A stretch of 64,000 nt of DNA. Source: Blastocystis sp. Blastoise. Taxonomy: Eukaryota > Sar > Bigyra > Opalinata > Blastocystidae. The stretch is from assembly GCA_039096225.1 (NCBI GenBank), contig JBBPEB010000024.1, forward strand, positions 310,001 through 374,000. Direction: 5' to 3'. Both the position numbers and the translations under genes were made by a program. The notes beneath the pieces were generated by a model that saw only the letters and a list, made by a program, of their open reading frames with translations, had not been told where the DNA came from and did no database searches. How positions within the stretch are numbered: the first letter of the stretch is position 1; the number at the start of each line of letters is the position of its first letter. Below are positions 1,293 to 56,325 of this stretch, in pieces.

Positions 1293-1638
1293 ATTTGAAA
1301 AGATTAACAACTCTATAAAAATGTAAATTTTCATAAATATTTTGATACTTTCCCTTAATAAATAAAAAAAATCATATTTTACTGAAATCATTATTTTTTT
1401 AAAAATATAAACGAATTAAACTATTTATTAACTGTATGTTAACAAGTGTCAAAGGTTGTGATTATTCAAAATAAAAATATAAAAGTATCACTGAATATAT
1501 TATTTAGTAAAAGAATAATCATGATGTTTTTTTTTGTAAATTCACATGAAAGACATATTAAATAGTAAATCCAAATTATTTTGTGTAATATTGTTTAGTG
1601 AAAAATAAAAACAACATGAATAACGTTCAAAAACTTAA
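1293..1638. other. Intergenic spacer between SDR start and MutS homologue end
   Basis: About 350 bp of AT-rich sequence without a convincing ORF. Both flanking genes are on the minus strand, so this should hold the terminator of the MutS gene and the promoter of the SDR gene. No specific site was recognised. Confidence 0.5.
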
Positions 1639-7532
<5,894 letters not shown>

Positions 7533-8136
7533 TCAAAATATAAGGAGGGAAAGAAATGGAAAAAATTTTAAAATTTTTTTTAATTTATAATTTTATTAAT
7601 CTACAAAAATTTTATTAAACTTTTATTAATTTTATTGTTCTTTTAAATAAACATTTATACAATAATTTACACATACTCAATAGCACACATTGTTATATAC
7701 ACAATTAATGAATTGAAAATGGTGTCTATATTCCATGTATTACTTTATTTTCTCAATTTTTATATGTCAAATGGTAACAAATAAAGGAATAAATATAATA
7801 CGATTCTATATTCTGACTCCTAAACTTCTTTGACACAAATAAAAAAAAGGAACATTGAAACAGTCATTCGTCATTTTTCCGTTGACGTGATTGACATGAT
7901 AATTGGATAAAAAATCAAATTATCCAATAGAAATGCACAGAAATTGCTAAGAATAATCATGTAATCACTACGAAAATAGGCACTTTTTGTAAAATAACCG
8001 AAAAACAGCTTCTTCCAAGCCTAAATAAAACCATTAAGGTCATTACATTTTATTTTATTTTTCAACTTGAAACTATAAAATTGTAAGTGTATATTCGACT
8101 ACTTGTATTTAATTATACTGTTCATCTATAGTCACA
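7533..8136. promoter_or_regulatory. Shared upstream region of the divergent MutS and IleRS genes
   Basis: About 600 bp separate the two start codons, which point away from each other. The region is AT-rich but less simple in sequence than the introns and has no ORF with coding character. It must contain both promoters; no individual element can be identified by eye. Confidence 0.5.
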
Positions 8137-9790
8137 ATGGAAAATACTGCTGCTAAACTCGACAACGCTCCAGATCATATAAATTTTTCTGAAGCTGAAA
8201 CAAGTATCTTAGAATATTGGAAGAAAATTGATGCTTTCAAAACTTCCTTAAAGTTATCTGAAGGAAAACCTGAGTTTTCTTTTTATGATGGTCCTCCATT
8301 TGCTACTGGTCTTCCTCATTATGGTCATATTCTTGCTGGTACTATTAAGGATATTGTCACTCGTTATGCTCATCAAACTGGTCATCATGTTACTAGAAGA
8401 TTTGGTTGGGATTGTCATGGTCTTCCTGTAGAATATGAAATTGATAAGAAACTTAATATTACTTGTTCTCAAGATGTTGATAAGATTGGTATTGCTACGT
8501 ATATTTTTATTTCTTTTTTGTTCTATTTATATATATAATTGTTTTTACTTTTTGATTTAAAAAAAATTGTTATTATTTATATGTTTTTATTTATAATTAA
8601 ATTATTTATATATTATATATATATATATATATATATTATATAGTTATAACGCTGAATGTCGTAGTATTGTATCTCGTTATACTAAAGAATGGGAAGAAAT
8701 TGTAGGTAGATTAGGTAGATGGATTGATTTTGAACATGGTTATAAAACATTAGAACCCTGGTATATGGAAAGTGTTTGGTGGGTATTTAAAACATTATTT
8801 GAAAAAGGATTAGTTTATAGAGGTTTTAGAGTAATGCCTTTTTCTACTGCTTGTACTACTCCTTTAAGTAATTTTGAAGCTAATTTAAATTATAAAGAAG
8901 TTAGTGATCCTGCTATTATTTTAAGCTTTAAGATGAAAGAAGATGAAAGTATATATAGAGTTTTGTTATAATTATTATTTTTTTTTATTTTTTAAATATA
9001 TATATATTTTTATTATGCTTTTTTAATTTTTTAATTATTATTTTTTTTTTATTTTTTTAAATATATATATATATATATATATAGGTGTAGCCTTTTTAGC
9101 TTGGACAACAACTCCTTGGACATTACCTTCTAATTTAGCTCTAGTTGTTCATCCTGAATTTAAATATGTAAAAATACATGATATAGCTCAAGATAAGAAA
9201 TGGATTGTTGCTGAAAGTAGATTATGTGCCTTATATCCTAAGATGGAAAAGAAAGGCTATAAAGGTATATTTATTATATTTATTATTATATTTATTATGT
9301 TCATTATGTTTATTATTATGTTTATTATTTTTATTATTATGTTTATTATGTTTATTATTATATTTATTATTATATTTATTATGTTAATTATGTTAATTAT
9401 TATTTTTATTATGTTAATTATTATTATTATTTTTTATTATTATTATTATTATATGTTTATTTTTATAAATATAAATATTCTTTTTTTAAATATAATATTC
9501 ATTGATAATAATACTATATATATATATATAGGTGGTGAATTTGAAGTATTAGAAAGTTATATAGGTAAAGATTTAGTAGGTAAAGAATATGTACCTTTAT
9601 TTGATTACTTTAAAGATTGGCCTAATGCTTTCCATGTTATTGCTGATACTTATGTTACTGATGATAGTGGTACCGGTATATATATATTATATTATATTTA
9701 TTATGTATTATTATGTTTATTATTATTATATTATATTATATTTATTATGTTAATTATTATTATTATGTTTATTATATTATATTTATTATG

Positions 9791-9848
<58 letters not shown>

Positions 9849-11605
9849 ACTATATATATACCTATATATATAGGTATTGTACATTGTGCTCCTGGTTTTG
9901 GTGAAGATGATTACCGTGTAGGTTTAGCTAATGGTATTATAGTATTAGGAGGAGATGTACCTTGTCCTATTGATCTTAATGGTAAATTTGATAGTAAAGT
10001 ATACTTATATTATATAATTATATTTATATTATATAGTTATATTTATTATATTTATTATATAATTATATTTATATTTATTATTATTTTTATTATGTTAATT
10101 ATGTTTATTATGTTTATTATATGTTTATTATTATATTTATATTTATTATGTATTATATAGTTTTATATAATAAATAAATAATATATATATATATAGGTAT
10201 CTGATTATCAAGGTAGATATGTAAAAGATTGTGATAATGATATTATGACACGTTTAAAGAAAGAAGGAAAGCTTATTAATAAAGCTTCTATAAAACATAG
10301 TTATCCTTATTGTTGGAGAAGTGAAACACCACTTATTTATAGAGCTATTTCTAGTTGGTTTGTTAGTGTCACTTCTATTAAAGAACAATTAATTAAAAAT
10401 AATGAACAAACTTATTGGGTACCTGCTTTTGTTAAAGAAAAACGTTTCCATAATTGGTTAAAAGATGCTAGAGATTGGAATATTAGTAGAAATAGGTATA
10501 TATATATGTTTTATTTTTTATTATTTATTTATTTTATTTTTTTTTTTTATTTTATTTATTTTTTTTAAATTTTATTATTTTTTTTAAATTTTATTATTTT
10601 TTTTTTAAATTTTATTTTTTAATAATAATAATAATAATAATAATATATAGATATTGGGGTACTCCTATACCTATTTGGATAAGTGATGATGGTGAAGAAA
10701 TAGTAGTAGTAGGTAGTATACAAGAATTAAGAGATTTAACAGGAAATCAAGATATTAAAGATATACATAGAGAATCTATTGATTCACTTACTATTCCTTC
10801 TAAACAAGGTATTTATATATATATATAGTTTATTTATTTATTTATTTATATTTATTTATTTTATTTATTTATTTATTTATTTATTATATTTATTTATTTA
10901 TTTATTTATTATATTTATTTATTATATTTATTATATTTATTTATTATATTTATTATATTTATTTATTATATTTATTATATTTATTTATTATATTTATTTA
11001 TTATATTTATTTATATTTATTTAATGTATTATGATTATGATTATTATATATATATATATATAGGAAAGGGTATGTTACACCGTGTATCTGAGGTATTTGA
11101 TTGTTGGTTTGAATCTGGGTCCATGCCTTATGCCCAACAACATTATCCTTTTGAAAATCAAGACTTATTTAGTATATTGTTATATAGTTATATAGTTATA
11201 TTATTATTTATTATTTATTATTTATTATTTATTATTTATTATTTATTATTATTTATTATTTATTATTTATTATTTATTATTTATTATTTATTATTTATTA
11301 TTTATTATTATTTATTATTTATTATTTATTATTTATTATTTATTATTATTTATTATTTATTATTATTTATTATTTATTATTTATTAATAAATATATATAT
11401 AAATATATAGAGTCTATATATCCTGCTGATTTTATTGCTGAAGGTTTAGATCAAACAAGAGGATGGTTTTATACTCTTATGGTCTTATCTACTGCTTTAT
11501 TTGATAAACCTGCTTTTAAAAATCTTATTGTTAATGGTATATATATATATTAAGATTTTTATAGTATACTATTATTATTTTTTTTTTATATATTTTTTAT
11601 TTTTA

Positions 11606-11645
<40 letters not shown>

Positions 11646-13704
11646 AGTACTTGCTAGTGATGGTAAGAAGATGTCCAAGAGACTGAAGAATTATCCTGAT
11701 GTATATATATATATATATATTATTATTATTATTATTTAATATATATATATATATAGCCAATGTTATTAGTAGATAAATATGGTGCTGATGCTATTCGTTT
11801 ATATCTTATTAATAGCCCTGTTGTTCGTGCGGAACCCTTAAAATTCCAAGAATTAGGTGTTCAAGGAGTTATTAAAGTATATATATATATATATAATGTT
11901 ATTTATTATTATTATTTATTTATTATTTATTATTATTTATTATTATTTATTATTAATTATATATATATATATGTTTAGGATGTATTCTTACCTTGGTATA
12001 ATGCTTATCGTTTCTTAATACAAAATATAGATTATTGGGAACATAAAAATAATAAGAAATTTATTCCTAATGTAGAACAAGCCATTCATAGTGATTCTGT
12101 TATGGATAAATGGTTATTAGTATATATATATATATATATATAGTTTATATATATATAGTTTATTTTTATTATTAATTATTAAGTTTTAATACATTTTTTA
12201 TTATTATTAATAACATATATATATATATATAGGCTTCTGTACAAGATTTAGTATGTTTTGTTAAGAAAGAAATGGAAGGATATAGATTATATACTGTTGT
12301 TCCTAAACTTATTGATTTCATTGAAAAACTTACTAACTGGTATATATATTTATATATATATATATTATTATTATTATTATTATTTTTTTTTTTCTAAATA
12401 TATTTTTTTAATAATAAATATATATAATATATATAGTTATGTTCGTTTGAATCGTTTACGTATAAAAGGTGGTGATAATGAATCTTATACTTCATTATGT
12501 ACTTTATATGAAACATTATTAACATTATGTCGTTTAATGTCACCTTTTACTCCTTTCTTTACTGAATATTTATATCAAAATCTTAGAAAAGTTCATCCTG
12601 TATATATATATATATATATATATATATTAATAATAATAATTAATATAATAAATATTATATATAAAACAAAACAAATTATATAAATAAATATTATATATAT
12701 AAAAAAATCCAAATAATAAACACTATATATATATAGAATTATAATAATGAATCTGTAGCTATTGATGAAATAGGTAGAAGTGATAGTATACATTATGTAA
12801 TGTTCCCTTCAACTGATATGTTTAGTGAATGTGATGATCCTATTATACGTAGACAAGTAGATAGACTTATGCAAGCTATTGAATTAGGTAGAATCTTAAG
12901 AGAACGTAAAACTATATCTTTAAAGATGCCTATACGTTCTATGACTATTATTAGTGAAAATAAAGAAATATTAAATGATATACAATCATTAGAAAATTTC
13001 TTAAAAGATGAATTAAATTGTTTTGATATTATTTATGAATCTAATGAAGATGAATGGTGTACTACTTCATTTAAACCTAATTTTACTGTTTTAGGTAAAA
13101 AATTAGGTAAAGGCATTAAAGATGTTAAAGATGGTTTAGATAAATTAACTAGTCATGATTTAAAAACTATTAATACTGAAGGAAAAATTACTGTATATAT
13201 ATATAGATATTTATTTTTTTTTTTTAATTATTATATATATATTTTTTATTATTATGATTTTATTTAAAATATATATATATATAGGTAGCTGGATTTGAGC
13301 TTCTTAAAGAAGAATTATTAATTGTTCGTGAAATAAAGAATTTAGCTTCAAATTATGAAGGTAGTGTCACAAATGATTTTTCATTTATAGGTGCTATTAA
13401 TTGTGAACAAGATCAAGAAGTAATTGATATGGGTATTGCTAGAGAGTTTATTAATAGAGTTCAAAGATTAAGAAAGACAGCTGGATTAGTAGCTAAAGAT
13501 ATGATTAATGTTTATTATGAATTTGAAGGTGAACATTATGAATCTATTCAAAAGAGTGTTGAAACTACAAAACAACATATTTCTGATAGATTAAATAGTC
13601 CTATTGATTATATTCAAAATATACCTTCTAATGCTTCTATTATTATTGAAGAAAAGAATGATATTAATGATATTCCTATTAAATTTATACTTACTCATGC
13701 TTAA
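8137..13704 (+). CDS. Isoleucyl-tRNA synthetase, cytosolic (EC 6.1.1.5)
   Basis: Class I aminoacyl-tRNA synthetase that charges tRNA-Ile. Sixteen exons: 8137-8498, 8644-8948, 9085-9264, 9532-9675, 9874-9998, 10197-10495, 10651-10808, 11064-11171, 11411-11536, 11642-11700, 11757-11876, 11979-12119, 12233-12339, 12437-12599, 12737-13192, 13285-13704. They total 3273 nt, or 1090 aa, close to the yeast enzyme. Hallmarks are the HIGH-type signature [13 protein letters not shown], the CP1 editing domain ([13 protein letters not shown] and [10 protein letters not shown]), [31 protein letters not shown], and [15 protein letters not shown] (KMSKR loop). The C-terminal extension is of eukaryotic type. 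There is no leader peptide. Thirteen of 15 donors read GTATAT. Two junctions are odd: exon 10 lacks an AG acceptor where one is expected, and the exon 13/14 join gives NCYVR instead of the conserved NWYVR. Confidence 0.97.
9265..11410 (+). repeat. Simple-repeat-filled introns of the IleRS gene
   Basis: Each intron carries its own short repeat. The 9265-9531 intron is built from TTTATTAT/GTTTATTAT units, the 9676-9873 intron ends in (ATT)n, the 10809-11063 intron is TTTA/TTTATTATA, and the 11172-11410 intron is ATTATTT. The coding strand of these introns is T-rich and almost lacks C. The exons between them (see the CDS entry) are unaffected. Confidence 0.85.
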
Positions 13705-25227: not shown

Positions 25228-26887
25228 TATAAAAATCATCATATATAAGTTCAGTAACATTTGGAAATATATGAGTTGTCATTATTTTATTAAACAAATC
25301 ATTATCTATATCGCGCATTATTGCTTCGACTATATAGATAATAATATTAATAATAATAATATCTTAAAATAATACAACTGAAAACATCAAATACAGTTGA
25401 AGAATCGAGAATTCCTTCTTCAAATAATTTCATAAATATTACAGAAGTATATTTTGTTGAATTATCTAAAAAATATTTTTCTTTAATTTATTTAATATAT
25501 TAATTTACATGTTCTTAAATGATTTTTGAAATAGATAAATAGGAAGGAAGAAGTAATAATTGAGATATACCATGCTCAGTAGATACTTGATCAATACTAT
25601 TTATTATATATATAGTATATAATAATATAATAAAATAATATAATTATTTACATGAATGTTTTATCATTTGTTTGATCTATAAATATAATAATAAAATATA
25701 TAATTCTATAATATATATACCATGATATTCAATTTTAACTTGATCATTAAATATATATTCATCTTCTGTTTCACTTATTTCGACATTTGAATAATCACTT
25801 GTATATATAGCTTCTTTCACAATATCTTTATATAATTTAGGTAATTCATTCTTTTGTCTTTTGTCATTATAGGAATCAATTATATCATGAGAATAATATA
25901 TTTTATTAAGATCTAAAGAAGAAATCTTAGTATATTCATTCATCTCGGATTCAGTATAATATTCATATTTTTTACGTTTAGATATTCTAGATTCATCTTT
26001 ATATAATAAACGAATATATTCCATTATATATTCATCACTATTTGGATTTAATAATAGTTCAGTCTTCTTATAATGCGTATTCGCTTTATATATATAATAA
26101 TAAAATATTGATAATATAGATATTATTACCATATATATCTATAATTTCTAATGATGGAAATATATCTTTAATACATGATGGACATATATATTCAATTGGA
26201 ATATTTGATGAATAATCATCTATATTAAGTGTTATTTATTATATATTAAATATATATATACATTCTATTTCAACTGTAGTAATATTCATCATTTTAATAA
26301 GAAGAGAATAATAAAATAATTCTTCTTTTTGTTGAGGAGTTATTAATCCTATATATATATATATATATATATAATATAATATAATATAATATATATATAT
26401 ACCTTGAATACATATTTTTTTCTTTTCTAAATTGTACAATTCCATAGGCATATGTAATTTTTTGTCTTCACAATAATATCCAGGTACATCATAATTATTG
26501 TCTTTTAAATAGTTGTAGAATAATTCTTTTAAATGAAATAATAAATCACTTTGAATTTCATTATTAATTGTAACTGAATATTCATAAAGTATTTTATATA
26601 TATCATAACTATCTCGTAGATTTAGTGACTCAATATCTACGTTATCTTCCATTAAAAATGAAATCACTTTATTCATGCTCAATGAAGGTATATCTATATA
26701 ATAACTACCATCATCATATTTCTCAGAGTGCTGAATAATATCATAAAACGATAATTGACGATATTTCTCAATAAATTTTCTAGGAATCCATAATTGCGTC
26801 TCATCTTGAAACGTAAATAAATCTAAATAAATAGCATATTGTTAATCATATTCAAATACATTTATCTTCAAATAATTCTTCTGACAT
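23029..26887 (-). CDS. BTB (T1-type) plus leucine-rich-repeat protein, copy 1
   Basis: BTB proteins commonly recruit CUL3 ubiquitin ligases, and LRRs bind substrates; that role is inferred. Exon 1 (26861-26887, starts MSEELFEDK) joins exon 2 (about 26403-26822), which carries the BTB fold: FTFQDETQLWIPRKFIEKY, then DDGSYYIDIPSLSMNKVISF and LNLRDSYDIYKILYEYS. About 20 short exons of 60-150 nt follow, separated by GTATAT...TAG introns. They encode LRR-like strings such as DIFPSLE and, near the end, SKLINFVTNGKLPKLESLSF. A mid-protein block has LLNPNSDEYIMEYIRLLYKD. The last exon ends NHVRFDFK and stops at 23029-23031. Copy 2 at 31176-43380 is collinear throughout, which supports the model. Some internal exon ends are approximate. 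Confidence 0.75.
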
Positions 26888-28421: not shown

Positions 28422-29952
28422 TTATATTCTTCCCCAGACTTCATAATCTTCTACTGTAAAATTGTTATAAGAATTAGCATCATTTGTATTTACAAATAAT
28501 TTTGATTTTGGAGGAGTATACACTCCAGAATAATAATACGCAGAACAACGAGAACTAGTATTACTATGACATTCATCAGATATATAGATATCATAATAAC
28601 CAAATGTTGGACCAGAAGAAGAAGAACAAAGTATAGCGTAACGTTTATCATTATTTACATAATCATATTTAGTAGGAGGAATACCATGTTCATTACTTAA
28701 TGTAAATAGAAATTCTTTTGAATAAGATTTACAATCTATATAATCATATTGAGTTACTATATAAATGAATAAATATATTACCTGAACCAGCCCAACTTTG
28801 ATCTGTATAGCCTCCAAATATATTAATATGATTATTATAACCGATATGTTTGATTATAGTTACTGTTTCTCCTTTATAATCACAATATCTATGAAATTCA
28901 CTTGCTTTATATTCATGTTCACTTGCTCTAAATAATAATTTCCATTTCTTTTCTTTACCAAGCCAATTCATTAAGGGTATTTCCATGGATTTATTAGTAA
29001 GTATTCGTGTATAGGGGAAATATGAATAAGGGATCATGCATTCATACACTATTTCTCTTCCTGTATCACCAAATAAACAATACATTTCATTCTCTAATAA
29101 ATCTCTATTTATATTCTTAGTTTCTTCTTCAGAAATATAAATACAATTATATTGAATATATTCATATATATGATCAATATATTCAAGATACATCTTCATA
29201 AACATTTCATTATTCTTTTCGTCATAATCTACATATCCATAACAATTTCTTTTAATAACATTATTTAATAATCCATTTTTCTTTAAGTATTTTTTTAATC
29301 TATCATCTTTCTTATGGTTTATATATAGAATAACATCATCATCTTCTTTATATTGTTTCATATTATGACCTATTCTATATATAGTCTTCACTAATTCTTC
29401 AGGAATAGGTAATTCACAATATTCAAACATTTTTAATAAATCAATTTGATTTTTCATCATTAAGTTTTCAATATTCACTTTCTTATTCATTAAAGAATCA
29501 ATTAATAAAGGAAAAAGTGTTTCATCACCACGATAATCTAAATAAATACTTCCATCATTAGCTCTTTGATTTTCTTGAGAATATTCATACAGAAGACTAC
29601 CCACTAAACTATTTGTTATTCTTTTAGGAAGACAATAAACTGGACCATTACTTGTAAACCGAATATAATCAATTCCATTATCATCATCATTCATAGTAGC
29701 AACATTTTCATTCAGAAAAGAAGATTCTTGGATAATTATACTTGGATCATCACCATTCTTATCATCCATTCCTTCACAATTTCTTACAGATTGTTTTACC
29801 AATTCATTTATAGATTCACCTGAATGAATACAGAAACTTATTGACTTACTTAAAATACCAATCAAATCACCAATCAGTCTTTCAAAATGAATTACATCCT
29901 TCTGAATATCACCCATCTTATTCGCATCAAATTCTAGCTTCTCTTTCACCAT
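28422..29952 (-). CDS. BTB plus TLDc domain protein, 501 aa
   Basis: Two exons, 28782-29952 and 28422-28756, joined by a GTAATA...ATAG intron (phase 1); 1506 nt. Residues 1-60 are helical and begin MVKEKLEFDANKMGDIQ. Residues about 93-185 form a T1-like BTB domain (DYIRFTSNGPVYCLPKRITN ... DGSIYLDYRGDETLFPLLID). Residues about 335-501 are a TLDc domain: WKLLFRASEHEYKASEFHRY, GETVTIIKHIGYNNHINIFG, GYTDQSWAGSG, then FLFTLSNEHGIPPTKY and the terminal NFTVEDYEVWGRI. TLDc proteins act in oxidative-stress resistance or as V-ATPase regulators in other eukaryotes; BTB-TLDc proteins are expanded in several protists and fungi. The specific function here is unknown. It sits between two BTB-LRR genes on the same strand. 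Confidence 0.92.
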
Positions 29953-31175
29953 TCTAAATAATAAAAAAGGAGTAAAAGAACAATGAAAATTCTTTTTAAA
30001 ACTCTTTTTCTATCTTATATAGAGAAATGTGGTTCTCTAATTCAAAATTCTAGTTAAAAAACTCAATTGCGAAATATATTCTTTTATAGAGATAAATTTA
30101 ATTATAATCGTAAATATTTATGAAAAACTAGGTTTTCATCAATTCACGATTATTTTTGTTTTATTACTTTTATTTGATAATTAATCGTGATCTAAATCCA
30201 TTTTTTCATTTATTTTTTTTATTCCCTTATTATTCATTTAATTTGCATTTTGAATGATAATTATTTCATTAAGCCATCTCTTAACTATCTAATCTATAAG
30301 AATATTGTTAAAATAGACTAAAATAATCAACTGATTGTCATTCTTTGTTCAATTAGCTATTGTAAAAAATCTATTCTCTGTAAATTATTAATTAAGATAT
30401 TCTTTATGTTATTAGTTAATATTTATTACTTCGAAATATCTTCATTTATTCACGTTTTGGTTTGTAATCTTCTTCATATGATTTATTTGAATATCAATCA
30501 CTGTTTATCATTATTCCGATAATTATAATTCACATGAATCACTGATATAAATTATGATTATGGAATTTCTTTTGATAATCATTCAAATTATTTCCTAAAT
30601 TTGGTATCTTTATATATTTTTTATATTCATACTATTATTCTCTATTCATTCAATATTAATTTATTTCATTCAATTTCAATATCCTTCTAGTTATTCCAAA
30701 ACTCATTATCTTCTTCTTGTTATATCTTCTAAGAATTCTTCCCACAAAATATTTTTTACTCCTTATAATCACTAAGAAAATTAGTCAATAAACTCCATTC
30801 AAATAGCTATTTCATATAGTATATTTATAAAATTTGTTTTTAAAAATCATCTAATTATCAATATTATATCTTTATATTTAACTTTTATAAAACATTTATA
30901 GCTACAAATCCTTTATGATATTATTATAATAAAAATAAATCTTTAGAAACACTTATTATCCAAATTTAATACACAATAAAATATATAACAATGAATGCAT
31001 AATAACCAACACGTTGTATTAAAAAATTTATATGCTTAAAACATTAATCTAAATATAAATCGTTTATTTCATTATTTTCAAAATTAAACACTAATTTATA
31101 AATAACCCATAGAAACCTAGATACATACAAAAAAAATATATATAGCAACACAACAATAGATAAAAACATCAGCTT
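29953..31175. other. Intergenic region, 1.2 kb, nothing recognised
   Basis: AT-rich spacer upstream of the BTB-TLDc start codon and downstream of BTB-LRR copy 2. No ORF with coding character. Confidence 0.4.
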
Positions 31176-34100: not shown

Positions 34101-34795
34101 ATATAGTCATCACTATTTGGGTTTAATAATTGTTCTGTTTTCTCATAATTTGTAATCACTATATATTAATAATAATAATATATATATTTACCAATAATTT
34201 TTAATTCTTCTAATGAAGGGAATATATCTTTAATTTTGGAAGGATATATATATTCTAATGGAATATTTGAGGCATATAAATCTATATTATTATCATTTAT
34301 AGTATATTCTATATATATACATGTAATTTCAACTTTAGTAATATTTATCATTTTAATAAGAAACGAATAATATAGCAACTCTTCTTCTCTTTTAGGTGTA
34401 AATAATCCTTTATATATATTCAATGTATTACTTATAAATATCAATATAAAAATACCATCTATTCTCATCCTTTTCTTATTTGAATCAAATAACTTCATAG
34501 GCATATATAACAAACTTTCTTTACCATAAAATTGATATATATCATAATTATTTTCTTTCAAATATTCTATAAATAACTCTTTAATATGAAAAAATAAATC
34601 ACTTTTCATTTCACTATTAGTTGAAAATGAATATTCAAGAAGTGTTCTATATATATCATAGCTATCTCGTAGATTTAAAGAAGAAATATCTTGGTTTTTG
34701 TCCATAAAAAATGAAATCACTTTTTCTGTATGAAATGGAAGCATATCTATATAATAACTACCATCTTCATATTTCTCAGAGTGTCCAATAATATC

Positions 34796-34803
34796 ATAAA
34801 AGG
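34796..34803. repeat. 8-bp target-site duplication, left copy (ATAAAAGG)
   Basis: ATAAAAGG immediately precedes the element's first bases CAGCGACTTCC. An identical 8-mer follows the other end at 43226-43233. Confidence 0.85.
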
Positions 34804-34850
34804 CAGCGACTTCCAAAAGGCCCTTTTTTTTTGCGGCGTCGCAATTGTCA
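34804..34850 (+). repeat. Left terminal inverted repeat of the hAT-like element
   Basis: Imperfect inverted repeat of 43179-43225. It begins CAGCGACTTCC and shares TTGCGGCG at the same distance from the end. Confidence 0.7.
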
Positions 34851-35720
34851 GCAAAATTTGTGACACAAAAATGAAAAATGATAAATAACTTTTTTGTTTT
34901 TAATTTTAAAAATATAAAAAAAATATTTTCAAACTCAGCTCATCAAGACACGTCGATTTACACACTTTTCATGAAAAAAGGACCGGGTGACATAAAAAAG
35001 ATAATTCATTCATTGACTATTATATTATGACGTGACAGTTTTTGACTAAAAACGTATTATTTTGATATATAATGTATGACTATTTGAAAATAAGTCAAAT
35101 AAAATATTTTTTGTGACACATGTTGTGACAGATACATGACTGAAAAGTATATAAGTCATCAAATAACAACAAGTATGATTCCTATGTTTGACTATTCGTG
35201 TTAAGTTGGGTGACAAATAAAAATATTTTGTGACAATAGTCAATTGTTTATATACTTTTTTTAAGCTATTTCAAATAGTATTATTTATGTGTTATAATGA
35301 ATAATATTGTCAATAAACTCTAAAATAATATTATAAAAAATAATAATGTAATTAAAAAGTTTTTGTTTTTGTTAAATATCACGAAGTAGTCTTGTAGGGA
35401 CTCTACAGATACACCCTGACTAGTAATAAAAAAAAATAAACGAAAAGCATATTAAAATAATTATTTTCAAAAACCAAACAAAAAACAACAGTATGAACAA
35501 AAGTCAGATTTTAAAAAACAATACTTCAGACAAAATGTTTTTTAATAGCCTTTAAAAATGGTTTTAAAATGTATTTTACATGTAGAATAAGTCACACAAC
35601 ACATTTATAATATTTATATTGTAAAATATATTATTTTTATGTTTAAAAAGGGAAAAATAAAAAAAGGTTAGTAGTCACTGGTTTTATAATTATTATATGA
35701 CTTGATGATAAATATTATAT

Positions 35721-35794
35721 AAGGGGTATTTGGTCGAATGGTTTATGCGCATAAAATTTTTACATGGTCGACGGATCGATCCTTATAGGGGACA
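35721..35794 (+). repeat. tRNA-like (SINE-like) sequence A
   Basis: TGGTCGAATGG fits a pol III A box and GGATCGATCC resembles a B box about 40 bp later. It is followed by GGGGACATTTT and a T run. No full cloverleaf can be drawn. It ends like sequence B at 36081, so the two may be a small family. Confidence 0.35.
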
Positions 35795-36080
35795 TTTTCT
35801 TTTAAATTTTTTTGACAACTATTTATAATGATTCAATCAACTCTGCGTCATTTTTAGTATTTAAAAAACGTTTACATCACTGAGGTGTTCTTTTTGAGTT
35901 CATTATCACCACATCAATAGACAATTTATTTTCAAAAATTAATAATTTCTATTTAATAGTTATTCTAAGCATGTCTATACTGACATAAATGTTATGAAAG
36001 ATAATGAATATAAAAATTTGAAGATTTAGCTATATTTAAATTTATTATATATATTATATAAAAACAAAAAATTGAGAGAA

Positions 36081-36150
36081 TTGTTGGTATAGTTGGTCAG
36101 CGCTATAGTTATAATGGTTATTGTCGCTGGTTCAAATCTTATCTGGGGCA
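36081..36150 (+). pseudogene. Decayed tRNA, anticodon loop like tRNA-Ile(UAU)
   Basis: AGTTGGTCAGCGC matches the D arm and A box, TTATAA matches the loop of tRNA-Ile(UAU) (T33 followed by TAT), GGTTCAAATC matches the B box, and CTGGGGCA looks like a 3' acceptor strand followed by T runs. The 5' acceptor strand and T stem no longer pair, so this is a tRNA-derived pseudogene or SINE head rather than a working tRNA. Confidence 0.5.
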
Positions 36151-36829
36151 TTTTTATTTTTTTACATGTATTGTTTTATTTTTGAATTATAATAGTCAAT
36201 ATATTATTACTATTATAAGAATCTATATAAAATTCTTTGTTTTCAGAGGTTAATAAAATTATAAAATTACTCTTTTTCTTTACAAAAAGTCTATTTGATT
36301 ATCAATTAATTTATAAATATATTATATAGTTTTTAGCATGAATTATTTAATTACAACATATATATTTAGATGTTACAGAGATAAAACCGTGCTATTTTAA
36401 CACACTATGATTTCAATTAAATATATTTGTCAGTTATATTAATAAAATAGCATTCTGCTTAAGATATAAATCTTATACAGAATAAAAATATATAATCAGT
36501 ATAGTTATTTATTAAGATGAGATTCACAATTTATAAACATTTCTTGTGTAACATGTCTTATTTAAATCAATTATAGATTATTATACATATATAAATAAAA
36601 TAGATAATATCTGAAACGTTTTACAACCTATCATTAACATAATAAAGATTATATTTTTATAAAAAACTAATGTTGAATTATTTATATTTTATTATTCTCT
36701 ACTAGAAAAGATATCTGTAAATCAACTAATTCTAAATATCTACCAAACAAGAAGAATATTATAATTAAATATGACATAGTACAATTTTAATAATATAATA
36801 GATAATATGTAAAAAATTAATCATTATAA

Positions 36830-39800
36830 TATATATATGGAAACTCTTTCCTATCCTATATAAACTAATTATAAAACTATGAATAATTTAAATAAATATA
36901 TATATAGATAAATACATACCTTTATATAAAAATGTTGTTGTCCTATAATATATATAAAATCATTTGTATATACTGTTAATAATAAAACTGATCTATTTAT
37001 TATCTATATATAATATAATATGATATAAAGAAAATACATATACATTTCCATAAATTAATATTGCATAACTATATAATAATTATAATAATAATATAAATAT
37101 ATATACCTATCAGTTTCTATACGAGTTTCATTCTTATATATTTCTATATATAATTCTTTTGATATATCTTCTTCTATTGTATTATTAAAGGAGTGATTAT
37201 TAAGAAAAAAATATTTATATTATAAAATATATATAAATAATAATATAAAAGATATATCAAAGAGATGAACATGAATGAAAATTTGATTACCAGCTATATA
37301 AGCTATATATATAAATAATAACTATAATAATATAAATATATACTTTTATTAATTCCTTCATCATCTAATAATTCTATATATATAATAATAATAAAAATAA
37401 ATAATAAATACCATTTTTTCCATAATCTTCATAATTAGGAACAGGAATAGGATTATTATTCGAAGGGAAATGAATAAATGATTGTTGAGGGTCCATAATT
37501 GATGGAGAAATAATCAATTGAAATTGTTGTTCATAATGAACTTGTTCAAGAGAAAATGTTATAGTATATGTATCAGCATCAATATAATACATTCTATATA
37601 ATAATAATAATAATAATATCTATAATATATATACTTTGTATAAATAGTATTATGATCAAAAATAAAGATAGCTGGCTTATTCCCTGTACAATAAGGTAAA
37701 TCACATACATTGAGATTATTACCCTTAGAATCAATCAATGTTGATTTTAAGAATGGTTGAATATAAGTAGGGTTAATATCATTACCATAAATATCTCGTG
37801 GATGAAATGTACAATTGAATTCTATTCCTGTAGTTAATTCATCAGGACAAAGTAAATAAGAAGGAGATCCAAGAAGATCTATATAATAATATTATTATAT
37901 ATTATATATTATATATATACTCAAATTAGGATAAGCATAAGCAGTAGTAGTAAGTATTTCTATATAGGGTTGATCTTCAAAGGATGTAGAAATAGTAATA
38001 GTATATAGATCTCGATAAGAAGAAAGATGAAGAGGAGAATCTATTAGAAACTATATAAATATTATAAATTATATATGATTATATATATACATGGATATGA
38101 TTATTATTGAGAGTATAAGAATAGAGAAGAGGAGGAGAAGAAGTTAAATTGAATTGTTGATTTATAGGAATAGGACTATATAATAATAAATAATAATATA
38201 TAAAAATAAATATACATTTCATTATTATGAATATCTTTAACAATAACATCTAATTCTCTTCTTATTTCAGGTACAAATCCCATACTGAATGTTCCTGAAT
38301 AGGTTGATAATAAAGAATACTTTAAACATGTGAATGTAGTAATTGTCACTGATATATCCAATATAGGCATATTATTATATAATAATATAAACGTATAATT
38401 ACGAGCAGTAGGAAGATGAGGTATAGTTGTATATAGATTAAAGAAAATAATAGTGTTTAATTATTATTAATATATATATATATAAAAGGATATTTATAAG
38501 TACCAGGTGATGTAGTTTCAACTATATACATGATTCCATCATAATAATCTTCATCTATATTTATCCTATATATATATATTCATTTATATTTATATATAAT
38601 AATAATAATAGAATACCATTTAAGATTAGATTGTTGACCCGTAATAATATGTTGATTTTCATCAAATATTTGAAATAAAAAGAATGGATCAGTTTCTAAA
38701 TTGACATTTAATATCGATGATACATGAAATTTAAGAGGAGATGTTAATCTATACAGATATTGAAAATAATAATAAAAAATATATATACATGAATAGAGAA
38801 TAAGGAAGAGAAGATAGAGTAACAGGAATATCTTTAGAGAATAGATTATCTTGTTTATTTTGAAAGAATAGACGTATATATAAATAAGGATATTCTGATT
38901 CAGTAAGACCAATAATAGAAGACATTTCAACAATATAATGAATATGAATACTATAAATAAATAATAAATATAAATAATAATATTAAATATACGTATTATT
39001 GAGTATATGTTTATCTACAGTGAAAGGAGTATCTTCTAAAGTATCAGCTCGTCGAATATCTATATCAATATATTCTCCTTCATGATTATATATAGAAAAA
39101 GAAGGATCTTCTTTTGAATATCCACCTTCTTCAATATAATATGTAGCATTCAATGAATTAAAATATTCATCCTATTATAAATATATAATAATAATAATAA
39201 TAAATAAATACTTTTAAATTCATATAGATATCTCCACAAATAGAAATATTAGTAGAATCACAATAAGAAACAAATTCAATTCCAGTACCATGAATATCAG
39301 TATGAGCAATATAAAGAGTACCAGGAACAACAGCTATTATAGATAATATATATTATAAATATAAATATATTTACTTAGATAAGAATCATAGATATTTCCA
39401 GAAACTAATGTAATCAATGAAATCTTATGGAATCCTGATACTTTAGCAGGTATAGAACATGTACTAAGAAGACTTATTGAATCTGGATTCATAACATCAT
39501 AATAAGTATTTCGATCTATATAAAATTATATTCAAATTATATATATTTAAATATACCTTCTACATAACTATAATCACATATTTTATACACACTTTGTAAA
39601 TTAATTACTGAATTATTATATCTATAAATAATATATAAATAAAGAATAATAAATAATTACATATCAAAGAATTTGATGTTTATAGGAATAATATCACCAG
39701 CAGTATAAAGAGAATCATGAGTTACTTTTATTGTAGATGTACTATATATATATAAGAGAATAATAATAATTAATATACATTTCAGTAGAAGGTATAGTAG

Positions 39801-41569
39801 TGATATTCCATTCTAAAGAGGACCAAATATTATCTTCAGATAAACAATCTATTTTCACAGTTATATTTCTAACTTTTGAAGGTAATTGAATAAATGTATA
39901 AAGAGGACAAATAGAAGTATATTGATATTCTTGTGTATATATATCAAGAGAAGGAGATGTTGAAAATGAATAAAAGGATTTCTGAGTATACTATATATAA
40001 TAATAATATATTAAATAAATATATATATACTTCTCCATCACCTTTAATATACACTTTATATTTATCTCTTCGATTATCTAAACAATATCCATCATCATAT
40101 ATATCTCTTGTATATATATACATATACGTTAATGTGCCTGCAAAACTAATAGGACTGTAAAAAGTAGAATTAAGAAATATATATAATATTATTATTGAGA
40201 GAATATAATATAAAATAACTAATAAAAGGATATATAGATTTCAGTTTTCGAGCAATCATTAGGACTAATTCTACTTTGAATAGTACAATATATATAAGAA
40301 TTAATTGTATCAATATCTTCTTCTTCTTCTTGATTTAGAAGACGTACATATAAATGACCATTAGAAATCTCACGAAAGAAACGAATGGATAATGTATATT
40401 GTGAAGTAGAATCCATAGTGATTCTATAACTAAAGAATTGATCGGATTCCCCTGGAAATAAAGGAATATCAAATCCTTCTGAAGATGTTACATATAATTT
40501 TATTATAAAATTATTCTGATTCACTAAATTATAATAACGATCTCTTACTATTAATGTAAACTATATATATTATTTTTATTTTTATTATTATTATATATAT
40601 ACATCAACACTTCTATATAAAGGAATAATTGAATAGATAGTAGAGATAGAAGAGTAGAGATAAGAAGGAACATCACTATATACTGATAATTGGAATGGAG
40701 TATTAATCACAGATAAACCATTCACACTATAAAAATATTATTATTATTTATATAAATATTTATATATATATACATCCATCTAAAATAAACAGATTCTGAA
40801 GTATACGAAACAAATTGATATATTAATTTTTCATGTAATGGATCTATATATATATAATAATAATAATAATAAATAAATAAATAAATAAATACCTTCTTTT
40901 GAAGTAAAGAAATAAGATTGATCTGTATTTAATAGAATTGTTCCTGTAAATAATGTTGTAGGAACTGTATTATTATATTCATCACGAAAATATATTTCAA
41001 AATCATCTATATATATATATATATTATTAAATAAATATTAATTAAATAAATATATACGAATAATGCCAACACTAGTAGTTCTATTTGGTGGTATAAAAAT
41101 AGTATTTGAAGGAAGAAGAGAACCATGAGTTACTGTCCATGCAGATAAAAATGGAGAATAATGAATAGGAATACCATCTACTGTTATATAAATATCATAT
41201 ATAGCTACATAGATAGCTTTTAAATATAAATAAAGAGAAGAAGAAGAAAGATAGGAGAAGGTATATGTAGGAAGAGATGGAACTATATATATATAGAATA
41301 ATAATAAATATATATAATAATAAATATACCCTTTCGATCACTAATAAAAGTGATTTTAATTCGTTTTTCGAGATCAATATCTATAGGTATTTGTCCACAT
41401 CGACTATTAAGGAATAATTGAAGTGGATATATAGATCCTGCAGTACTCGTGAAGAAGAGAGGATATTCAGAAGGAGTAATAGTAGTAGAAGTCAAAGGAA
41501 TCGTTGATACTGTAGGAGATATCAATTGGATGCCCTAATAGATAGATAGATAGATAGATAGATAGATGA

Positions 41570-41626
<57 letters not shown>

Positions 41627-42174
41627 ACAAAATTTGTTATTTTCGTTTTTAACTAGCAAACAAAAGCACAGAATTCAAGAATGGCAATAAGAAATAAATT
41701 TTCTATATAATATATAAATTGATGATAAATATAAAACATAAATAAAATAAATAAAAATTAAATAAATAATTTTAATAGGAAAAAAAGAAAAAGAGAAAAT
41801 GTGTCAATGTAATAAAGAAACAAATAGATATATTTATATACCTTCAATATTGCTTTGATTTGTTATTTGGAAGAGGTATAGACAATAATAACCAAGAAAC
41901 CTAAATGAATTAAAAAAGGAATTAGATAAAATACCTTATAAGAATCAAATCAACGATTCCATGTTATAAATGTATTTGAAATAGACCAAGGAGACTGTTT
42001 GAAAGGAAGAGGAAATCCAAAATGGGGAATCTAAAAGAATAATGTAAAATAATATGATATATTAGATAAATAAATACTTACACAGCATTAGGATTGCTTA
42101 AAAGCATCTATAGTCCTCGTAATAAGTTCTATTTCTACATAGAGACAACAAATTAAATATAAAAATGTATTCAT
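36830..42174 (-). CDS. Secreted protein with repeated Ig/filamin-like domains, cargo of the hAT-like element
   Basis: About 30 short exons with GTATAT...TAG introns. The first exon (42139-42174, MNTFLYLICCLY) joins 42084-42107 (MLLSNPNA) and 42030 downward (IPHFGFPLPFKQSPWSISNT), giving a good signal peptide. The next one or two joins are unresolved. From 41534 to 37330 the exons read as beta-strand-rich modules with a recurring D-x-Y-x-N motif: FRDEYNNTVPTT, VRDRYYNLVNQN, DEYFNSLNATYY, FHPRDIYGNDINP. A turn of the type WTVTHGSLLPSN also recurs. Such motifs are typical of filamin/Big-type Ig folds in adhesion or cell-surface proteins. No kinase, protease or transposase motif was seen. The 3' exons left of 37300 (for example EEDISKELYIEIYKNETRIE) are less certain. 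The gene lies wholly inside the element. Its role is unknown; a surface or extracellular protein is the best guess. Confidence 0.6.
41536..41625. repeat. (GATA)n followed by (TA)n in an intron of the cargo gene
   Basis: About seven GATA units followed by a roughly 45-bp TA run. Both lie within an intron between the small LKTKITNFV exon and the GIQLISPTVS exon. Confidence 0.8.
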
Positions 42175-43178
42175 ATTTAAATTCAAATCTTTCAGTCAAA
42201 TACTAAAAATATTCTTAAAAATACATTTTTTATTCTTCAGTTTTTTTTTGAGATATTCTATTAAGATTATTAGTTTTAACGCGTCAGACAATACATTATT
42301 TACACAATTCTATTGTATCCCACTACTTTTAGCTTCTCAAAAATAACTCATTTTCTTTGACTTTCTGATCTGTTTATATACTCGTCTAAAAACTACTGTT
42401 TTCAACTTCAAATGCTTTTCTATTACATAAAATTACTCTAATAGCAACTTTTAAAACGACTTTTATTTGATACTAAAAAATAACTGCTTAGTTTAAACTT
42501 CTGACAAAAGTTTTTGATGCGGAACCTTTAATTATACTAAAATATAATGTAAAAACTATTCTAAAATCTTTTTGTGCTTTGATATATAACAAAATATAAA
42601 CAGACTCAGTTTTGGACAAGAAAATTATTCCCGTAAATACAAAAGAATCAAAACTCTGGTCTTTTATTCAGCCAAACAAATAGGCTCGGTTCATTCTTTC
42701 AGTGTAAAAAAATAATTTTTTGACTTTTTGACTTGGTTGTCGTTTTGACTCATAGATGTCATTTTATTCACTTTTACACATGTTTATGAATTTAAGAGGT
42801 CTTTCACTTTGAACAGAGCTATAAAAAATTCTAAAATATTGACCCCATTATTGTCAAAATGGCGACTTAGAATGAAACAGAAACGTTTTTGATATTGTAT
42901 AACACTTTAGAATAATATAAAGATGTCAATTCATTGATAAAATATGCTTAATAGTTTTTTTGAGTCTAAATCATTAATCTACATAAAACTTTCCTGAAAT
43001 ATTCTTCTTTTGTATTCAAGTCTTTTATTTATTGAATTATTATTGATTAAAAATGTTCTTATGCAAAAATAAGCCATGAAAAAGCTTTAAATAGTCAAAA
43101 GTACCTATCAGTGAGAGAAATCACAATCTGGCTTCAGTTTATCGAATTCAGCCGAATTAAGCATGGCTGAAAAAAGTG
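42175..43178. other. Non-coding right arm of the hAT-like element
   Basis: About 1 kb between the cargo start codon and the right terminal repeat. It is less AT-biased than the introns, with no ORF of coding character. It presumably contains the cargo gene promoter. Confidence 0.4.
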
Positions 43179-43225
43179 TCACAAAAGTGTCGCCGCAAGT
43201 GTCACAGACACTCGGGAAGGCACTG
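43179..43225 (-). repeat. Right terminal inverted repeat of the hAT-like element
   Basis: Ends GAAGGCACTG on the plus strand; its reverse complement starts CAGTGCCTTCC. It contains AGTGTCACA and GTGTCGCCGC, matching the left end inverted. Confidence 0.7.
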
Positions 43226-43233
43226 ATAAAAGG
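43226..43233. repeat. 8-bp target-site duplication, right copy (ATAAAAGG)
   Basis: Identical to 34796-34803 and directly follows the element's CACTG end. After it the BTB exon resumes. Confidence 0.85.
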
Positions 43234-43380
43234 TAAATTGAGGATATTTCTCAATAAATTCTCTAGAAATCCATAATTTCGTCTCATCTTGAAACGTAAA
43301 TAAATCTAAAAACAATAAATCGTTTTTGTTGATATTTAAATACATTTCTCTTCGGTTAATAAAGACTCAGTGGTTGACAT

Positions 43381-45231: not shown

Positions 45232-47070
45232 AATAGTATCATATGATATGAAATAAAGTAATAATTTAATAATACATCATTATAATGATATAAGATATAA
45301 TAAAATAAATATGTGATAAGTCATGTAGGATTTTGTTTTGTTATAAAAGGGTGTAATAGGAATTTAGAAGATATAGCTGAAATAATGAAAATAAACATGA
45401 ATAATCTCATATCTACTAAATATAGAGAATCTTCATCATAAATAAAATGAATGGTTAAGAATAAAAGAGAAAGAGAAATTTTATTTCTATGAGGAAAATG
45501 GATATTGTTATTGTTATTTTCAATTTATCCTAATTATTATTAATACTATAAAAAATGTTTTATTTTAAAGAATTATATATTTATTTATCATTATAATGTT
45601 TTATAATTAGTTTAGACGACAGAAGAGTCATTTTTATAGTTAATTATCAAAATTATTCTTAGTATCACTTTGTAAGTATAACTTATTTTTTAAATAAACC
45701 TAGGCTATAATACAGACTTATAGAGAAGACCCTGAGACTTCTAATCCCAAAACAAAAGTGATTCATATAATTCAGAATGATTGTCTGAATCTTCATTTAG
45801 AGTATTAATTTGAGTCACATACTTTCAATAAAATGATTAAATAAAGAGAAAGATGATAAAAAAGGTCTAGAGTCAAAATTGTTATGAAATATCAACTTTT
45901 TAATCTATTTGTGTAGATTTTCAATTATTTTAATATCATAATATGACTGAAAAGAAACAAAAAACATTTTAAAGTCAATTAAGTCAACAATTGTAATCAA
46001 GTAAAAGTCTTTTAAAACCTCTTCATAAACTCAAAACGTATAGAGTGAGTGTTTTCCAGTTAAAATAATGTTTATTGTTACAATAATATCAAAAACAAAT
46101 CAAATTATTATTTTATAATTACTCAAGAACAACTTTTTCTATCAACTAAGGACTCATAGCTATCAAATATGCATATGAATAAGCAAAAATAATATTTTGT
46201 ATATTTTTAATTGAAAAGTCAGAATCGTGTTGATAGTTTACTATAAAACAAATGCAAAAATCACTTTTTTATCAAAAAAATGTTTAATCTCATTAATCGT
46301 TATATTCATGATTTATTCATTGTCTACTTACCGTGTTTAATCATCTTCAGTGATTTTTAGTGAAACTAAAATTATTTCAAATACATATTTTATTTTCAAT
46401 AATAACAGAAACGTCTCATATTGCATATTTAGTGTCTAAATGAAGTTTAAACATGACAGTGATATCAATTAATCAAAAATTATAAAATATAAAGAATCTC
46501 CATTTTTATGACTTGTCTTAAATCATGTTAAGAGTAAATGAATGAATAGTTTCATTAGTCATCTGTATGATTTTAGTATTATTTTCAAAATATTTTGTTT
46601 TTTAACAAGAATAAATTCTTAATTTATTGTTTATCAAGTCAAAAATGTATTTAAATGATTTTTTTCTACTGTACAAGGATACACTGATCATATGAAAAAA
46701 AAATTGCACAGAATCTTTTGATAATCTATTTTTGAAAATGAGAATTATTTTTTGGAACTAAACTAATATTTTACGTATAAACATTATAAAATCTCCTGAA
46801 CAATCTTTTGAGAAGATTCTGTGTTCGACAATACACTTAATTAAGTAATTGATAATTGTTGGAATATTTTTGTATTGAATAAACTGTTTTGAATGTTTCT
46901 ATGAATCATCTATATACAACTAATACATTTAATGATTAAATAAATACACATATAAAGAAAAAAATAGTAATTAACATAATTGATCTTCACCTCTCTGAAT
47001 ATATATTTTTTGAAAATCTTATACAATATGAATATTAAAACCTATATATACATAAAATAGTTATATAAAC
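45232..47070. other. 1.8-kb AT-rich region, no gene recognised
   Basis: No ORF with coding character, no clear repeat and no RNA gene seen on either strand. Confidence 0.4.
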
Positions 47071-47071
47071 G

Positions 47072-47140
47072 ACCTTAAGACAGGAATTGAACCTGTTTTC
47101 AATCATAAATTGATTGAAACTTACCAATTTAAGCTTAAGG
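47072..47140 (-). tRNA. tRNA-like gene (possible, anticodon unclear)
   Basis: On the minus strand CCTTAAG at the 5' end pairs perfectly with CTTAAGG at the 3' end (7 bp). ACAGG-TTCAATT-CCTGT forms a perfect T arm with a B-box sequence. GATTG pairs with CAATC around a 7-nt loop (AATTTAT). TTGGTAAG supplies the D-loop GG. Problems: the D stem is only about 3 bp, the position before the putative TTT anticodon is A rather than T, and the variable loop is short. It could be a divergent or organelle-type tRNA or a tRNA pseudogene. Confidence 0.45.
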
Positions 47141-47389
47141 ATAATATAGAGGAAAAGTAATATAAAGGGATATATAATAATACGAAAATAAGTATGAAAA
47201 AAAATATATGTATAAGAGAAAACGATGCTAAATATAGGAGGGAAAAATGAAAAGAGAATAAATAGAGAAAAATATAAAGTTAATGAGATAGGGATAATTA
47301 ATGAAATTAATAAAAAAGAATTAAAATAATAATATAGAGAAAAAAAAATATAAATATAGAGATCTATAAGTAAGGTATTGAAGAGAAGA

Positions 47390-51239
<3,850 letters not shown>

Positions 51240-54338: not shown

Positions 54339-54428
54339 ATGTTTTTCTTTTTTGTTATATCTTTATTATAAAATATCTTTTTTTAGTTTGATGAAGAGAT
54401 TTACAATATATTTATCAATATAAAAAGA

Positions 54429-56325
54429 ATGCCTAAACTGAAGCCAAAAAGAGTCTCTCAACAAAAAGAAAATAATACTCTAAAAATTCCGTCTCAACAT
54501 GATATACTAAAGACAATAGACGATAACATAGAGCTCATATATCAAGATGGATTTGTTTTATGTGATGAACCAATAACACCTAAATTTACTCCAGCTATCT
54601 CAATATTGAATGAAAACCGTCTTTATTCGTTGCTTGACTCGTTTTTATTAATCATTAATGATGCATTCTTGGACATACTTTTAAAATTTATTAATGAAAA
54701 AATATGTACATATAACTTATTAAAGCACAAAAAATATGGGTCAATAAGTAAAAATGAACTTTATCAGTTTTTTGGATTTTATTTTGCCTTAACTTCAGAG
54801 GATGTACCAAAGAAAAGAAATATAGAAATAGCATTTCGTTCTGTCTGTAAACAAATAAGCAATGATAAATCTATAACATATTCTCGATATAAATTTATAA
54901 AACAACAAGTATTATTGTCCTGTTTTCAGATTAACACTCTTTGCTCCTTAATTTCTGAGAATTGTCAAAAACTTTTCATTTCTTTTAATACAGTTGCTAT
55001 TGATGAAACAATGATATCATATAAGATGTCAACTGGAAGAAAAAAAGTGTTAGAAACTATGGTAGAACCTACAGGTCTTCGTCATATGGAACGTAAACCA
55101 CATCCTGATGGTTTTTTGATTTATCAAATGGCTACATATATTAAAAATTACGAAAAGAAAATTCCTTTTTCTCTTGGTATGTTTTGTGTTTTTGAAGAAC
55201 AAAATGCTACTCCTGTAGAAGCTCTTAGAGAATTATTAAGCTAGTATATATATATATATTATTAACAATAAAATTCTTTTTTTTTTAATTATTATTAACA
55301 TTATTATTAGCTGAATCTTTTTATTATTATATTCTATTCGTTATACTAAATCTTAATATATTTTTTTGTTTTACTTTTTCTCCTGTTGAAAATAATAAAT
55401 TATTTCATAGTGTTCAGAATAGAAAAGATCTGCTCATTGTTGCTGATTCTGCATTTGGTACACGTGATGGTTTGAATACAATTGCTAGTTTTCAGTTTGA
55501 ATCGCTTGTGTCTACACAAAATGCAATTTTTAAAAAATATTCTTTAGCCTTAACTTATGGATTATTAGTTGGAAACCAAAGAATTTTCTTTAACAAACAA
55601 AATGAATTTCTTTCTGTAAAACATGTTGAACATCATGAAGATAAGAATTACATTTGTATTTCCACTTCACTATATGATCTTGATGGTGCTATGATTCTTC
55701 AAAATTTAAAAAAAATCTCATTTAGTATGCATATATATATTATTTTTAATTGCTTTTCTTTAACACTATCTTAGTATATTTGTAATAGTACTTTTTATGT
55801 ATTTATTATATATGTTGTTACTCAATAAACTATAATATTTATATTTATATTAATTTAGCTGATAGTGATAAAAACCAACAGTTTCATACAAGAGAAATGC
55901 TAGAAAAAATGAACATTGATGAAATAAAAGGTTTGGCTGTCTTTCAAAAAATGTCTAAAAATTATTTAAATAAAAGTGATTTAATTTCAAAAGTGTTACA
56001 GTACGAAGAAAAACATTTCATTGGATTCCGTCATCAGGATGTTTTGAGTGGTTTTAGTAATGGAAATAGGTATATATTTAACAATTCAATCCATGAATAT
56101 TACCATGAATACTTTGGCTCAATTGATCAAATTGACAGAATTCTATATTCTATTCCACATGTTCACCCAATGAGATCAATGGAACTTAAAGCTTTCTTAA
56201 AAATGATTGATATTGTTTCAATAGATAGCTTTCATCTGTATACTTCGAAATGCAGTCATTATAACTATTTAGAATACCGAAAGAGACTTGGTATAAAGCT
56301 CATCAGAACATATCCTATTTATTAA
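54429..56325 (+). CDS. piggyBac-like DDE transposase (DDE_Tnp_1_7 family), 531 aa
   Basis: Cut-and-paste transposase. Exons 54429-55243, 55411-55724 and 55859-56325 (phases 2 and 1) total 1596 nt. It starts MPKLKPKRVSQQKENN with a basic N-terminus. The N-terminal domain has LYQFFGFYFALTSEDVPKKR, like the helical piggyBac domain. The RNase-H-like core has FNTVAIDETMISYKMSTGRK (first Asp), LLIVADSAFGTRDGLN (second Asp) and YFGSIDQIDRILYS (third Asp, equivalent to MGGVDxxD). After it comes an SMELKAFLKMIDI helix typical of the family. No Cys-rich C-terminal zinc domain is evident (only a single Cys in TSKCSHYNY). Both introns use host-like GTAT...TAG signals, and the first contains a TA run. The catalytic assignment is by motif alignment from memory of the family. 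Confidence 0.88.

Follow-up and report, generated by a model that had tools for sequence, protein, structure and literature searches.

A 64-kb stretch of the genome of Blastocystis sp. Blastoise (contig JBBPEB010000024.1, positions 310,001 to 374,000; hereafter the window, in whose coordinates positions are given) contains an 8,422 bp non-autonomous hAT element (34804..43225) that carries a piece of a host gene, and near-identical copies of this element elsewhere in the same assembly (33.3 Mb in 34 contigs, labelled C8, C15 and so on) differ in which introns of the captured gene they contain. With no transposase gene of its own and with captured host coding DNA between its terminal inverted repeats (TIRs), the window element is, by its sequence, a Pack-hAT. 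We consider it likely that a non-autonomous hAT element captured a host gene and that individual copies then lost introns through RNA; the intron absences are read here as recent RNA-mediated losses in transposon copies that would have been transcribed.

The captured segment (37023..41537, minus strand) spans 4.5 kb, over half of the element, and was passed over in the initial annotation of this DNA. It derives from a multi-exon gene and shares 94-95% identity with copies located close to contig ends on C30 and C8, two donor-like loci against which the capture limits are identical. Since about ten further exons precede the captured part in the C30 gene model, the cargo is a 5'-truncated copy, and since its introns were kept, capture took place at the DNA level. 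The gene is also found at nine loci outside elements; one is on C14, and the remaining eight lie at distances of about 23-108 kb from the end of a contig. The cargo model had no Pfam match at E<=0.1, and a protein search with it returned one cluster only, a predicted Blastocystis sp. Blastoise protein with 97% identity. Compared with the copies on C26 (an element), C30 and C8, the exons of the window copy are 98.7-98.9% identical and the introns 94.7-95.5%; against C8, we counted 21 synonymous differences in 679 sites and 17 non-synonymous differences in 2,453 sites, all of these values having been computed with an earlier exon model that included a 155-nt 'intron 16'. The conservation of the exons and the smaller number of non-synonymous changes per site indicate that constraint has acted on the gene family, and part of the branch between the window and C8 copies may predate the capture.

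An unexpected feature of the comparison is that five copies (window, C17, C13a, C13b and C20) are identical over their first 1,687 bases, yet have five different intron sets. Intron states were read from the letters through the cargo for the window, C17 and C13b, and from match positions for C13a and C20. There is not one mismatch between the window and C17 cargos over 4,474 sites, the single 41-nt gap being intron 20 (37594..37634, minus strand, as are all introns given here), which is also absent in C26. Likewise, the window and C13b cargos show no mismatch over 4,433 sites, with gaps of 40 and 42 nt that correspond to introns 18 (38051..38090) and 19 (37879..37920). The window copy itself lacks intron 19b, present in C26, C30 and C8, and has at this site a clean exon-exon joint (37737..37738); this intron is also missing from C17, C13b and C13a. 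In addition to 19 and 19b, C13a lacks intron 15 (51 nt, 38566..38616) and intron 16, a 65-nt AT-AC minor-type intron (ATATCC..ATATAC, 38429..38493), while C20 lacks none in the part covered. Adjacent absences were thus read directly in C13b (18-19-19b), in C17 (19b-20) and in C26, which is without introns 2-5, and were deduced from match positions in C13a (15-16 and 19-19b); single-intron absences occur in C26 (intron 20) and C30 (intron 13), and C8 is without none of those aligned. All nine whole-intron gaps displayed in two alignments (seven and two, respectively) are exact to the splice junctions.

An intronless 451-nt probe covering three intron sites matched 15 copies, 12 of which span it. 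By span, none of the three introns is present in C13b and one in C13a; two are present in the window copy, C17 and one C13 locus outside elements, and all three in the other seven. At least one probed intron is missing in 4 of 6 element copies versus 1 of 6 other copies, although these counts are low and include one shared absence. The 155-nt GT-AG 'intron 16' of our first exon model was replaced, because the 65-nt absence in C13a shows that the intron is of the AT-AC type. A second candidate AT-AC minor intron of the captured gene, starting with ATATCCTT, lies at 40157-40233 (minus strand), where the first exon model also had GT-AG. According to the available part of one survey, Blastocystis ST1 has 253 minor introns, 77% of them AT-AC, and the genus is noted for rapid minor-intron turnover (PMC10639083). 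Reverse transcriptase genes are present in the genome, with 20 of 21 matches to PF00078 above the cut-off; the open frames at these 20 places reach 2,787 residues, and some of the places lie in pairs about 8.6 kb apart.

The limits of the window element are set by an exact 8-bp target-site duplication, ATAAAAGG, at 34796..34803 and 43226..43233, a single exact 8-mer match having a chance of about 1.6e-4 at the local base composition. The 5' TIR (CAGCGACTTCC, 34804..34814, plus strand) begins with CAGCG and the 3' TIR (reverse complement CAGTGCCTTCC, 43215..43225, minus strand) with CAGTG, and GCGGCG stands 29 bases inside each end, at 34833..34838 (plus strand) and, as CGCCGC, at 43191..43196 (minus strand), each a single occurrence in the window. 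On the duplication, the inverted ends and the equidistant GCGGCG, the initial annotation was accurate. The subterminal GTGACA clusters that it described are indeed inverted, but their copy numbers are unequal: seven of the ten plus-strand GTGACA sites of the window, possible binding sites for a transposase, lie at 34860..35235, and two of the nine TGTCAC sites lie at 43177..43205 (minus strand), a third, at 38344, also being within the element. The insertion interrupts an exon of a host gene on the minus strand, the upstream portion of which is at 43234..43305 (upper limit approximate) and the downstream portion, in the sense of the gene, at 34169..34795 (limits approximate); the frame of the corresponding exon in an uninterrupted paralogue (26242..26841, minus strand) provides an empty-site control. 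When the element and one duplication are removed, the host reading frame runs on over the joint, and the joined flanks with one 8-mer align to the paralogue across 1.9 kb, with gaps in places, which confirms the interruption of one of two collinear paralogous genes. The name 'BTB-LRR' given to the host gene is not supported by Pfam, as a scan of four exon frames from the paralogous genes showed neither domain at E<=1. We also discarded the idea that the whole element is an introner-like spliced unit, as its ends, CAG..CTG within an exon, are not splice sites.

Further copies with the same ends, which the initial annotation had proposed to look for, occur across the genome. Using the 5' 187 bp as query, 40 of 62 candidates gave scored matches, six of them identical and full-length; the 3' 196 bp gave 34 matches, five of them identical, with no counterpart for the C20 copy. 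Exact 8-bp duplications were found in 10 of the 11 end pairs tested (those with both sides fetched), the ten elements ranging from about 8.3 to 27.7 kb. CAGNG is present at both ends in nine of the eleven pairs, the exceptions being C19, with CAGCC at its 5' end, and C10, whose 3' end deviates. The target preference of hAT elements is nTnnnnAn, and the ten exact duplications have T at position 2 in six cases and A at position 7 in four. With the first 120 bp as query, 23 of 40 scored matches are confined to the terminal 62-65 bases and are perhaps short derivatives. Over the whole element, the window and C17 copies differ by two adjacent bases and the 41-nt gap, while C13a and C13b match the window over 1,438 bases from their 3' ends and are then offset, which indicates a small length change outside the cargo. 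The window and C26 copies are 99-100% identical at element positions 1-1600 and 7201-8422, 98.1% at 6831-7200, and only 94.0-98.5% at 1601-6734; gene conversion with relatives near contig ends is perhaps responsible for the lower identity in the cargo. The C26 copy contains three nested units of a 2.87-kb repeat that has a hairpin-like end (a tandem pair and a single one), and the C29 element contains two copies related to this repeat, so that nesting accounts for part of the large element sizes.

The assignment to the hAT superfamily, in the initial annotation an inference from the ends, is supported by relatives that have related ends, exact duplications and transposase genes. Five such elements, on C15, C28, C8, C29 and C19 (16.3-27.7 kb, exact 8-bp duplications verified), contain a transposase gene, whereas the 13 listed transposase matches all lie outside the window element, whose lack of a transposase was noted previously; the latter would therefore have to be moved in trans. 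On C24, C18, C10 and at a second place on C15, the transposase gene lies downstream of a 5' end match, with a duplication verified in none of these, and C23:50514 is decayed. The C15 element measures 18,978 bp and has in common with the window element 1.37 kb at the 5' end (34804..36161, plus strand, 83% identity) and 80 bp at the 3' end (85%). A genome scan with PF05699, the C-terminal hAT dimerisation domain, gave 21.7 bits for both C15 and C28 against a cut-off of 21.4, and 19.7 bits, under the cut-off, for C29. A profile built from four members of the transposase family matched three remote proteins, all three listed with PF14291 and two with PF05699, and our own scan of one of them (P0012) confirmed both domains at 72 and 39 bits. 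The transposases of hAT elements have an RNase H-like fold with an inserted helical domain. In our alignments, the residue order is D, D, C-x2-H, TR[FW], S-x3-S, which we take to agree with that of hAT transposases.

Could the element instead belong to another superfamily with hAT-like ends? P and KDZ elements also make 8-bp duplications, and the Pfam matches of the transposase are marginal; yet PF05699 exceeds its cut-off in C15 and C28, and the profile search retrieves proteins listed with PF14291 and PF05699, confirmed in P0012, which makes this origin very unlikely. Several points nevertheless weigh against our overall explanation. A matching duplication is missing at the C10 end pair; in single scans, PF05699 remained below the cut-off (20.3 bits for the C15 frame, 16.0 for P0003 and 15.6 for P0005); PF14291, listed as precomputed, was not found in our own scans of P0002-P0005; and a structure model of the transposase, made with three sequences, had a mean predicted local distance difference test score (pLDDT) of 31.8 and was not used. 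Moreover, transcription, an RNA intermediate and mobilisation in trans are inferred from sequence, and polishing with RNA reads would give intron absences of identical appearance.

Such an artefact, in which spliced RNA reads entered the consensus polishing while the hAT element itself is real, is rather unlikely in our judgement. The absences do lie in a multicopy and presumably expressed gene to which DNA reads map ambiguously. However, the housekeeping gene for isoleucyl-tRNA synthetase in the same window (8113-13701) retains 15 introns in its model, although this is one gene only, and all three probed introns are kept, by span, in 7 of the 12 probe-spanning copies. A gain of the variable introns, for example as introners, which have reportedly been found in many eukaryotes (PMC9860276), would also fit presence and absence alone, as these do not give a direction. 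Because the copies on C30 and C8, close to contig ends, hold introns of similar sequence where element copies have none, presence is probably the older state, and we find gains highly improbable. Also highly improbable is an RNA-independent deletion of DNA through microhomology or the repair of double-strand breaks: the introns are short and contain many simple repeats, but the joints have no consistent direct repeats (by eye), the nine displayed gaps end exactly at splice junctions, neighbouring introns are missing together, and the AT-AC intron behaves in the same way. The exactness, the adjacency, the involvement of both intron classes and the reverse transcriptases in the genome thus argue for a spliced RNA as template, as in the RNA-mediated loss that we favour.

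The shared ends and duplications suggest that the transposase of the larger relatives would recognise the CAGNG termini, perhaps with the GTGACA repeats, excise the element and insert it with an 8-bp stagger. An ancestor took up a 4.5-kb piece of a multicopy gene located elsewhere near contig ends, at the DNA level and with its introns, and one recent insertion disrupted the host gene in the window. At its new positions, the captured gene was probably transcribed and spliced, and reverse-transcribed or otherwise RNA-templated spliced copies may have recombined into single elements; this recombination would have deleted introns exactly, often neighbours together, including the AT-AC minor intron. 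It is conceivable, if unlikely, that intron loss is coupled to mobility, the breaks left by hAT excision being repaired from a spliced transcript or cDNA of the cargo. Each move would then shed introns of both spliceosomal classes faster than substitutions accumulate, and a host gene on a DNA transposon would lose its introns while spreading.

A second captured gene, UTP20, is represented by a piece in the transposase-bearing C15 and C28 elements and at 17 further places; C34 carries a longer UTP20 match (143.9 bits). As far as tested, the further places belong to a 16,220-bp element whose ends read CAGGG..CCCTG and which represents a second hAT family. Two of its members, both measured at 16,220 bp and each carrying a 5'-truncated UTP20-hAT, are located at C33:553466-569685 and C33:359030-375249. 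Exact 8-bp duplications were present in both copies tested, and 12 left ends match a thirteenth, with differing flanks; the family probably has about 17 copies. A UTP20-carrying relative is nested in this second, 16.2-kb hAT. We rejected the C33-type repeat as an element of the first family, that of the window, as its constant outer flank results from a first-family copy inside the second hAT.

Among known systems, the 14-kb ToxhAT of fungi (PMC12506042) reportedly carries effector cargo and moves between fungal species. It resembles the present case as a large element with cargo, a hAT by name, whereas here copies are dispersed within one protist genome. That hAT elements capture genes is well known from plants (PMC8903248) and fungi (PMC6710886). 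Like the Pack-TYPE (Pack-hAT) transposons of plants (Gisby and Catoni 2022, PMC8903248), the window element is non-autonomous, has TIRs and a duplication, and contains captured coding DNA without a transposase; it differs in its protist host, in carrying one 4.5-kb intron-bearing gene piece whose copies differ by exact intron loss, and in having transposase-bearing relatives that carry a captured gene piece too. The hAT with an amplified histone H3 in Pseudocercospora fijiensis (Dhillon et al. 2019, PMC6710886) shares the 8-bp duplication, a captured housekeeping gene and many copies, but the elements there are fungal, measure about 9.5 kb and have copies inactivated by repeat-induced point mutation (RIP); the genes captured here are UTP20 and an unrelated one, and the available portion of that article makes no mention of intron loss. 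Intron loss in DNA-transposon genes, with mediation by reverse transcriptase proposed, was described for CACTA transposase genes (Buchmann et al. 2014, PMC4158355), there across divergent plant families and here among near-identical copies of a captured gene in one genome.

In the literature available to us, a search for hAT elements in Blastocystis returned one paper, which deals with a diatom, a search for the strain Blastoise returned none, and a narrow search for intron loss among transposon copies also found nothing; in the part of the Blastocystis ST7 genome paper that was available, 'transpos' occurs only in connection with repeat masking (PMC3129679). As far as searched, the host lineage, the combination of features and the intron losses between copies without substitutions are new. 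They extend hAT gene capture to a stramenopile, with two captured genes, one of them on transposase-bearing elements, and with nesting of one hAT in another. Intron loss is normally inferred between species; here, three copies without a single substitution in a 4.4-kb cargo differ in their introns, so that tract length and adjacency, as well as position bias and what becomes of minor AT-AC introns, can be measured directly.

Other features of the window include a series of frames at 54387-56322 (plus strand), the first of which (54387-55241) matches PF13843 (DDE_Tnp_1_7, presumably piggyBac-type) with 24.2 bits, while the next two have no match. In the region 47000-51000, GAA-type repeats occur and the GC skew is about 0.8-0.9, and an open reading frame at 28747-30009 (minus strand) encodes a TLDc domain (PF07534, 39.8 bits).

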